49,628 bases of DNA, taken from contig PWHW01000002.1 of NCBI GenBank assembly GCA_003555075.1, positions 160,210-209,837 of the forward strand, in the 5' to 3' direction. The translations under genes and the position numbers were made by a program. This document shows positions 46,904 through 49,049 of the stretch, one piece after another (positions within the stretch are counted from its first letter, which is position 1; each line of letters starts with the position of its first letter). The notes beneath the pieces were generated by a model that saw nothing but the letters and a program-made list of their open reading frames with translations, had not been told where the DNA came from and made no database searches. Source of the DNA: Candidatus Nealsoniibacteriota bacterium (lineage in GTDB: Bacteria; Patescibacteriota; Minisyncoccia; Minisyncoccales; PWPS01).

Positions 46904-47944
46904 ATGAGTCTTAAAAGAACTTTGTGGATCTCACATTCCGCTCTTTCCGCTTTTGATCGTTGCCCCTACTTATATTATCTTGAGTATATATACAGAAACC
47001 CTCGAACCGGAAGACGAATACAGATCGTCAATCCTTATCTCTCTTTGGGTTCCGCGGTTCATGAGACCATAGAAGGGCTTTCAGAATATTCTCCCAAAGA
47101 AAGAAGTAGAATTTCTTTAAAGGAAAGGTTTGAAAAGATATTTGAGAGTTACAAGGGGGTACAAGGAGGGTTTATTTCAGAAAGGAAAGAAGGGGAGTTT
47201 AAAAAAAGGGGCTTGGAAATGGTGGAAAGAGTTGAGAAAAGTTCCTTTCTTGAGCGTCCATCTGTTGCAACGAAAAGCAATCTTTTGTCAGTTGATCTCA
47301 TGGGAGAAAATGTCAAGCTGGTGGGGAGTATAGATTGGATAGAGGAGCTTCCGGAAGGGGAGGCGCATATAATTGACTTTAAGACCGGTAACAATAAAGA
47401 GAGGAACGGATCATTGCAGCTTCCCATTTATTCTGTTTTGGCAAAAAATAATATACCTCAAAAAATAAAAAAAGTAAGCTATTGGTATCTTCAACATGAT
47501 GATCATCCTGTTTCGCAGGATATAGAGGAAGCGGATAATTATTTGGAATCTTTAAAAGAAAAAGCTTCTGTGATCGAAAAAGCTGTGATTAACGATCATT
47601 TTCCCTGTAGTTATCCCGGGAGATGCTTTGCTTGTAATGATTATGAAAAGATCTTTCAGGGAGAAGCCGAACTTATTTCCTCCAATCAGAATCACAGCAA
47701 GGATGCTTTTTGCGTATTCAAGGAGAATGAGGTCATAGAAAAGATACTTGAAGAAGACTTTTTAGACGAGCGCGAAAAGAAGATGTTCGAAATAAGAGTG
47801 AAGAGAGGTATGGAAACTGCAAGCAAGGAACTTAGGTTGTCAAGAGAAAAAAGTGGTCAAATAGCGGAAAGCATCAAGGAGAAACTAAAGAACAATCTTC
47901 GCCCCAAAGAACTCAAGGTTATTGTTAAGACGTTGAAGGAATAA
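46904..47944 (+). CDS. RecB-like PD-(D/E)XK nuclease with likely Fe-S cysteine set
   Basis: HSALSAFDRCPYLYYLEYIYR, LGSAVHETIEG, AHIIDFKTGNN, LQLPIYSVLAK, FPCSYPGRCFACNDYE. Confidence 0.9.
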   Translation: MSLKRTLWISHSALSAFDRCPYLYYLEYIYRNPRTGRRIQIVNPYLSLGSAVHETIEGLSEYSPKERSRISLKERFEKIFESYKGVQGGFISERKEGEFKKRGLEMVERVEKSSFLERPSVATKSNLLSVDLMGENVKLVGSIDWIEELPEGEAHIIDFKTGNNKERNGSLQLPIYSVLAKNNIPQKIKKVSYWYLQHDDHPVSQDIEEADNYLESLKEKASVIEKAVINDHFPCSYPGRCFACNDYEKIFQGEAELISSNQNHSKDAFCVFKENEVIEKILEEDFLDEREKKMFEIRVKRGMETASKELRLSREKSGQIAESIKEKLKNNLRPKELKVIVKTLKE

Positions 47945-48543
47945 TGAAAAAAACAGACCTGCTTTATGAGATAAAAAAAGAGATCGTAGATCTCAAAGAA
48001 TCTCCGTTGTATCAAGAAAGAATAAGAAATAAGGTTTTCCCGGTAATAGGGGAGGGTTGTCATGATGCAGATATTATGTTCGTAGGAGAGGCACCGGGAG
48101 CACGAGAAGCGGCAACAGGAAGACCTTTTTGTGGAAGTGCGGGAATGGTGCTCACTGAAATACTCGAAGCAATCGGAATAGAAAGAAAGAATGTTTATAT
48201 AACCAATATATTAAAGGACAGACCTCCGGGGAATAGAGATCCTTTTTTAGAGGAAATAGAGGTCTATACGCCTTTTTTGGACCGACAAATAAAGATAATA
48301 GAACCAAATATAATTGTTCCCTTGGGAAGATTTGCCGCAAGACATATCTTGGGGAAGTATGAAATAAGGGTGGAACCCTTTTCAATATCAAATATTCATG
48401 GTATAATATACAATGCATCCTCTTCTTATGGGAGCATCAAGATTGTGCCGCTAAAGCATCCGGCGACAGCGGTGTATAATCCCAACAGGAAAAAGGAGCT
48501 TCTTGAGGGGTTTGAATCTCTCAAGAAAATAAAAGGAGGATAA
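47944..48543 (+). CDS. Family-4-type uracil-DNA glycosylase lacking canonical cysteines
   Basis: ADIMFVGEAPGAREAATGRPFCGSAGMVLTEIL, VYITNILKDRPPGNRDP, IIVPLGRFAARHILG, LKHPA. Confidence 0.88.
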   Translation: MKKTDLLYEIKKEIVDLKESPLYQERIRNKVFPVIGEGCHDADIMFVGEAPGAREAATGRPFCGSAGMVLTEILEAIGIERKNVYITNILKDRPPGNRDPFLEEIEVYTPFLDRQIKIIEPNIIVPLGRFAARHILGKYEIRVEPFSISNIHGIIYNASSSYGSIKIVPLKHPATAVYNPNRKKELLEGFESLKKIKGG

Positions 48544-48581: not shown

Positions 48582-49049
48582 TTGACAGTAGGAAGGAAAT
48601 GGAAAAGATCCGTGTCAAAACGGAAAGGAAAGCAACATGATCAAAAAATAGAAGAATTTTTTGAGCACCCGGAAAAGATGGGGATAGAAGAGTTAAAAAA
48701 AGGAAAAGTGGTGTATAGAGAAGCCTTTCCGAGAGATAAGTACAATAATGAAGTAGGGGACTTAATAATCGTTTCCGAACATCAAAAGAAATTCAAGATT
48801 TTCATTATTGAGCTTACTTTGGGAAAGAGAGGAAGCAAGATCATGACCGATCGAAAAAAACTCAGAAAAAGCGAAGAATATTTTCGAAATCCTGTCAATG
48901 CTAAAAATTTCTTTAGCAAAAGGTTCAAACAGATGGGTGAGAAAATAGAATATGTTGCAAAAGGAGTTATAGTACTTTATGTGGAAGCAAAACTCCTTAA
49001 TGAGAAGCCGTACATTGAAGAGGTTTTCAAGATAAAGAGCGCCTGCTAA
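48582..49049 (+). CDS. Protein of unknown function, possible PD-(D/E)XK-like fold
   Basis: TTG start with AAAGGAGGTGA; NEVGDLIIVSEHQKKFKIFIIELTLGKRG. Confidence 0.65.
   Translation: MTVGRKWKRSVSKRKGKQHDQKIEEFFEHPEKMGIEELKKGKVVYREAFPRDKYNNEVGDLIIVSEHQKKFKIFIIELTLGKRGSKIMTDRKKLRKSEEYFRNPVNAKNFFSKRFKQMGEKIEYVAKGVIVLYVEAKLLNEKPYIEEVFKIKSAC

Follow-up and report, generated by a model that had tools for sequence, protein, structure and literature searches.

Does a family-4 uracil-DNA glycosylase (UDG) need its [4Fe-4S] cluster? The question is raised by an open reading frame (ORF) in a stretch of 49,628 nucleotides from a Candidatus Nealsoniibacteriota bacterium (the window, by which the whole analysed stretch is meant), for which an earlier reading of the letters alone (the original prediction) had proposed a family-4 enzyme that has lost all four cluster-binding cysteines. 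Here, the gene product was assigned by profile and structure comparison, the former ligand positions were followed through related genomes, and possible reasons for the loss of the cluster were weighed.

Gene, fold and former ligand positions

The ORF at 47944-48543 is complete, with an ATG start and 199 codons for amino acids, and shares 1 base at its start with the stop codon of the upstream nuclease gene. The features to which the text refers are as follows:

46904..47944, + strand: PD-(D/E)XK nuclease (PDDEXK_1, Cas4/AddB-like), upstream of udg (PF12705, 5.4e-25)
47944..48543, + strand: udg, family-4 UDG of the predicted cluster-free LSDY type (ORF, profiles, AlphaFold2, Foldseek)
47992..48003, + strand: L17-K-E-S20, in place of the CxxC pair (Cys1 and Cys2; 4zbx alignment)
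48085..48099, + strand: motif 1, G48-E49-A50-P51-G52 (E41 and G42 of Thermus thermophilus), followed by E55 and F62 (alignment)
48205..48219, + strand: N88 (uracil recognition; T. thermophilus N80) through D92 (in place of Cys3), followed by N97 (T. thermophilus N89)
48265..48267, + strand: Y108, in place of Cys4 (Tyr in 138/139 Cys-free sequences, in several independent lines)
48457..48465, + strand: motif 2, HPA, with the catalytic H172 (T. thermophilus H155; His in 139/139 Cys-free sequences)
48582-49049: 155-aa ORF just downstream of udg, with a TTG start and no Pfam or NCBIfam match

Profile searches matched the udg product to TIGR00758 (UDG_fam4) with 183.6 bits, against a curated cut-off of 125.3, and to PF03167 (3.8e-31), while the stricter equivalog NF040953 was not reached (193.6 versus 250). 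An AlphaFold2 model, generated from 39 related sequences and no templates, gave a mean pLDDT of 95 and a pTM of 0.91, with the residue blocks around the four ligand positions at pLDDT 93-96. The top Foldseek match of this model was the Sulfolobus tokodaii UDG 4zbx (TM 0.89, rmsd 1.4 Å, 191 columns), followed by other family-4 UDGs and, more distantly, UdgX, so that the predicted fold is that of family 4. Among solved proteins, the closest relatives are the UDGs of family 4 (UDGa) from T. thermophilus, Thermotoga maritima and S. tokodaii (1ui0, 1vk2 and 4zbx), to which the model aligns with TM 0.84-0.89 and 36-44% identity in the structural matches, and with which it shares GE(A/G)PG, GRPF, N...RPPxNR, HPA/HPS and the pocket residues; BdiUng of Bradyrhizobium (5gn2) belongs to the same superfamily and is remote (TM 0.56, 14% identity). 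Family 4 is described by motif A, GE(A/G)PG, and motif B, HPA (PMC10359453), which in the window UDG read GEAPG (48-52) and HPA (172-174). The motifs quoted in the original prediction were thus correct, and the surroundings of the ligand positions are preserved. A defence function for udg was rejected, the gene giving no PADLOC match.

In the three solved enzymes four cysteines bind the [4Fe-4S] cluster, whereas the window UDG carries Leu, Ser, Asp and Tyr, just as had been predicted: pairwise alignment to 4zbx places the ligand cysteines of CKKC, KCRPP and TACSPY opposite L17, S20, D92 and Y108. Every family-4 defining feature that was tested is present except the cluster ligands. As the four cluster-binding cysteines read LSDY, the protein is classed as a family-4 variant lacking the cluster and, judged by its residues, is not a standard member under the strict definition; it is no new kind of enzyme. 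The same alignment excludes a [4Fe-4S] cluster bound through the usual ligands. Only two cysteines are retained, C39 and C63, of which the former is essentially private (1/127 members of the LSDY clade) and the latter lies within the GRPFCG motif and is also found in 47/123 of the CCCC rows, i.e. in cluster-bearing relatives. Furthermore, of the 127 distinct LSDY-clade sequences, 18 lack cysteine throughout the aligned span and 70 contain a single one. The possibility that other cysteines fill the vacated site was rejected on these grounds. Chance and annotation, assembly or sequencing error were similarly discarded as sources of the cysteine loss, because genus and family share it, including all 15 other family members searched, and because the substitutes are conserved: most of the 139 distinct Cys-free sequences have Leu or Phe at position 17 and Ser at position 20, and 123 of them have D92.

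Predicted catalytic function without a cluster

In T. thermophilus UDGa, residues E41, E47, F54, N80, N89 and H155 bind uracil or catalyse, as established by mutation (PMC5387724). Their counterparts in the window UDG are E49, E55, F62, N88, N97 and H172, and among the 139 distinct Cys-free sequences E49, E55 and F62 are invariant while N88 and N97 are each present in 138. The ratio dN/dS between the closest Cys-free pairs is about 0.05-0.17. The retention of pocket and catalytic residues, together with this low ratio, indicates that the gene is functional and constrained and, by homology, that it encodes a uracil glycosylase; the protein is a conserved and almost certainly active UDG, predicted to be cluster-free. 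It is probably also the main uracil-repair enzyme of its cell, since it is the single UDG-superfamily protein found in the genome, where an HhH-GPD glycosylase was not detected either.

Excision of uracil from DNA would follow the usual family-4 mechanism, with the flipped base held by N88 and F62, the leaving uracilate stabilised by H172 and a water molecule positioned by N97. Protein packing would take the place of the cluster itself: Tyr stands at the fourth ligand position, and the remaining three hold Leu/Phe, Ser and Asp. The original prediction had spoken of new contacts at the vacated site, a conjecture that agrees with the Asp of the third position and with the Tyr that is almost universal at the fourth, and this Tyr, being present in 138/139 sequences, looks like a convergent filling of the cluster cavity. 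In the family-4 UDGs studied so far, the cluster is described as mainly anchoring and stabilising a flexible loop rather than serving the chemistry, and Cys-to-Ser mutants of the Pyrococcus furiosus and Archaeoglobus fulgidus enzymes as losing just about 40% of their activity (PMC5295032 and works cited there). With so modest a cost and a loop-stabilising role, loss of the cluster appears mechanistically cheap. According to a report cited in PMC8307549, the cluster loop of A. fulgidus UDG is important for efficient recognition of uracil, and the Cys-free enzyme could therefore be weaker.

We put the probability that the window protein is a true family-4 UDG working without a [4Fe-4S] cluster at about 0.88, since no alternative cysteines are available, fold and active site have been retained and selection on the gene is purifying; in these respects the original prediction of a cluster-free variant is supported at the level of sequence and model. 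Loss of a cofactor sometimes goes with loss of activity, and UdgX of Mycobacterium smegmatis is an example of a repurposed UDG fold, so that a degenerate or repurposed protein without glycosylase activity, e.g. a uracil-DNA binder, has to be considered. The chance of this is small, given that the mapped catalytic and pocket residues persist in 138-139 of the 139 Cys-free sequences, that dN/dS lies well below 1 and that the genome holds no second protein of the superfamily. Furthermore, while UdgX resembles the window UDG in its family-4-like fold (TM about 0.79), it has a [4Fe-4S] cluster, the covalent R-loop KRRIH and GEQPG, none of which is present here; RPPGNRD and GEAPG stand in place of the latter two, and the TIGR03914 score is 97.1 bits against a cut-off of 189.95.

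In certain ferredoxins an Asp serves as a [4Fe-4S] ligand, and such ligation may apply to the intermediates with a CCDC set. Some other metal at the old site of the window UDG nevertheless seems unlikely from the residues available, and there is a very slight chance that a single Fe or Zn is held by Asp92, Tyr108 and Ser20 or that a cluster is bridged between subunits by C63. D92 and Y108 are indeed strongly conserved, but position 17 is mostly Leu or Phe and unable to ligate, the third position is variously Asp, Arg, His, Leu, Val or Ala across the Cys-free lines, C63 is common in cluster-bearing relatives too and is insufficient on its own, and 18/127 clade members have no cysteine.

Another DNA glycosylase family provides a parallel to a UDG predicted to function without its cluster. 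Cluster-less MutY, reportedly described by Trasvina-Arenas et al. in 2016, likewise comprises natural members without ligands in a family that normally carries [4Fe-4S], but it belongs to the HhH superfamily, has an unrelated fold and has its cluster site at the C-terminus. Its documentation among DNA glycosylases is cited in PMC11078426. No published description of a cluster-less family-4 UDG, and hence no already described subfamily to which the window protein would belong, was found in open-access papers; as many subscription papers lay outside this search, the missing report is weak evidence of novelty.

Distribution and history of the Cys-free type

The (L/F)-S-D-Y set defines a large clade of Patescibacteria, with about 127 distinct sequences in this analysis, and is also found in Chloroflexota. 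While the predicted cysteine loss is real, it is not the oddity of one genome: it is clade-wide, has evolved repeatedly and is accompanied by intermediates. A survey of cysteines in related genomes, which had been proposed as a check, revealed the loss throughout the window's family, where all 16 of 16 genomes are of the LSDY type (one sequence being truncated before the first two positions). A family-4 UDG is present in 108 of the 247 genomes of the window's order, and the ligand positions were read in nearly all of these 108, giving 44 relatives with CCCC (a CCCC tally of 45 includes 4zbx), 12 with CCDC and about 40 without any of the four. A few have other sets (CCDY, GCDY, CHLF, CCYG, CCHC and others), so that the relatives form a graded series of CCCC, CCDC, CCDY, GCDY and LSDY. 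Among 40 sequences spread over the matches listed for the class, 21 have none of the four cysteines and 12 have CCCC, and among 40 spread over the matches listed for the phylum just 4 have CCCC, with many different broken sets.

A pattern scan of named genomes returned 80 loci, comprising 78 of the Cys-free type, one GCDY and one CCCC, although these figures give no estimate of frequency as the patterns favoured 'YITN[IV][VL]KD', and thereby the Cys-free type. Many Patescibacteria contributed loci, as did eleven Chloroflexota (Anaerolineae, Caldilineae and unplaced), one of which also has a CCCC UDG. Contamination of the Chloroflexota bins by Patescibacteria (CPR) is unlikely, since these loci have a GC content of 52-62%, versus 39% in the window, and one of them (L154) lies amid ordinary ORFs on a 170-kb contig; the Chloroflexota copies are therefore probably resident genes.

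Several divergent proteins were encountered in the same searches. An Anaerolineae genome that also has an LSDY UDG encodes a divergent Cys-free UDG-like protein (L244) with LDRY at the ligand positions and an RMPPGDADRP stretch. A separate group of Patescibacteria has xCYC sets, in which two of the four cysteines are left (L211, L212, L214, L220, L223, L322, L325, L327, L340 and L343). Additionally, a 1081-aa ORF (L116:789-4034) combines an N-terminal UDG-like domain with family-A DNA polymerase-like sequence, possibly with an intein, and resembles the phage polymerase 9qhs; further long ORFs with a UDG domain occur in genomes G045 and G171.

In a broader tree, from which the four ligand columns were removed and to which outgroups were added as root, the 32 LSDY-type rows are recovered as a single group (SH-aLRT 95). 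Beside it stands a group made up of CCDC, CCDY, GCDY and CCCC rows, and both belong to a larger group in which CCCC rows branch at the base. The Chloroflexota rows are nested inside the LSDY group, which suggests transfer of udg between Patescibacteria and Chloroflexota. Within the LSDY clade, Cys3 was probably replaced by Asp at the outset, Cys4 then by Tyr and the CxxC pair last. In an earlier tree, midpoint-rooted and unevenly sampled, the Cys-free LSDY rows did not form one group; the single origin of the LSDY type thus depends on sampling, and the exact order of loss is less secure than the pattern itself. That uneven tree, though not the broader, outgroup-rooted one, suggested that cysteines had been regained from a Cys-free ancestor. 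Cys-free UDGs whose third position holds Arg, His, Leu, Val or Ala branch elsewhere, and one single loss for all Cys-free UDGs was rejected (lnL 260 lower, p-AU 6e-7), so that the state must have arisen several times. Parsimony gives 7 changes of the Cys-free state, a change being a gain or a loss, of which at least 4 are forced by well-supported branches.

Iron-sulfur proteins and cluster assembly around the loss

The nuclease encoded upstream of udg was predicted to keep a cysteine set of the iron-sulfur type, and Cys20, 235, 241 and 244 are indeed conserved in 15-16 of 16 homologues. Their spacing, C...C-x5-C-x2-C, resembles the Cas4/AddB set, in a different order, and the similarity of the protein to Cas4/AddB is weak; an iron-sulfur cluster in this nuclease is plausible from its residues. 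The adjacency of nuclease and udg recurs in relatives belonging to families f1 and f3. In line with the contrast drawn in the original prediction, the cell seems to retain a cysteine set in the nuclease and to dispense with it in the other repair protein, encoded by the next gene.

The likely permissive causes of the loss would be that the cluster is dispensable and that reduced genomes are under pressure to save iron-sulfur assembly. A stronger version, compatible with cluster-free function, is that the cysteines were lost since the cells cannot assemble iron-sulfur clusters, which as a general cause is possible but rather doubtful. In a survey of 80 genomes of the window's order, in which the search for scaffolds was confined to SufBD and IscU, one or the other was found in 29/29 genomes with a CCCC UDG, while all 20 genomes with neither had an incomplete ligand set (Fisher p 2.7e-5), 15 of them a UDG without any ligand cysteine. 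The within-family contrasts (f5, f21, f22 and f26) all pointed in the same direction, and the Nth homologues of four assembly-free genomes also lacked some of their cluster cysteines. Against this, phylogenetically independent pairs amounted to 0 to 3 concordant and none discordant, which is not significant (median p 0.5), SUF alone showed no association under the same control, and the Chloroflexota carriers of the Cys-free UDG have genomes of 4-7 Mb. The window's genome is itself among 18 Cys-free genomes with IscU, and a family search returned six radical-SAM matches in it; inability to make clusters is consequently unsupported for this cell and is not the current reason for the Cys-free UDG in this genome. 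Loss of SUF as the sole driver is likewise unsupported once relatedness is controlled. Given the few independent pairs, the missing link to SUF alone and the IscU of the window's genome, missing assembly is a plausible driver for some lineages but does not explain the case of the window's genome.

Further observations concern cluster supply in other lineages. At L006:1-1986, a sufC-like gene, a sufB/D-like gene and a CCCC-type udg form one tight operon with a 2-bp gap, which suggests that the UDG of this lineage has a cluster supply of its own. In the endonuclease III (Nth) homologues L394, L395, L392 and L393 (genomes G171, G170, G231 and G237, respectively) the last two cluster cysteines are lost, e.g. 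CPARSHDCKSHPLTKIY, while endonuclease III of G131, a genome with SUF, keeps C-x6-C-x2-C-x5-C. Families f8 and f33 include near-complete genomes (e.g. G195, G196, G231 and G232) without SufBD or IscU and with 0-1 radical-SAM matches, cells which are possibly almost without iron-sulfur proteins. A broader scenario, to which we would give somewhat less than even odds, is that Patescibacteria repeatedly shed the UDG cluster through an Asp- or His-ligated intermediate with a convergent Tyr at the fourth position, and that in some lineages DNA repair, or whole cells, came to be nearly devoid of iron-sulfur proteins (neither SufBD nor IscU, no more than one radical-SAM match and a cluster-less Nth).

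Why DNA glycosylases carry iron-sulfur clusters has long been argued, with structure, charge-transfer sensing of DNA and redox control as the proposed answers. In this case, close relatives with every number of ligands from four down to none appear, by all signs in their sequences, to perform one and the same task, and loss of the cluster occurred repeatedly, so that the role of the cluster can be tested with natural enzymes rather than damaged mutants. Annotation by family name would mislabel many such proteins as iron-sulfur proteins. The window UDG would be expected to be a cofactor-independent member of family 4, and together with its relatives it may serve as a natural experiment on whether a family-4 UDG needs its cluster.
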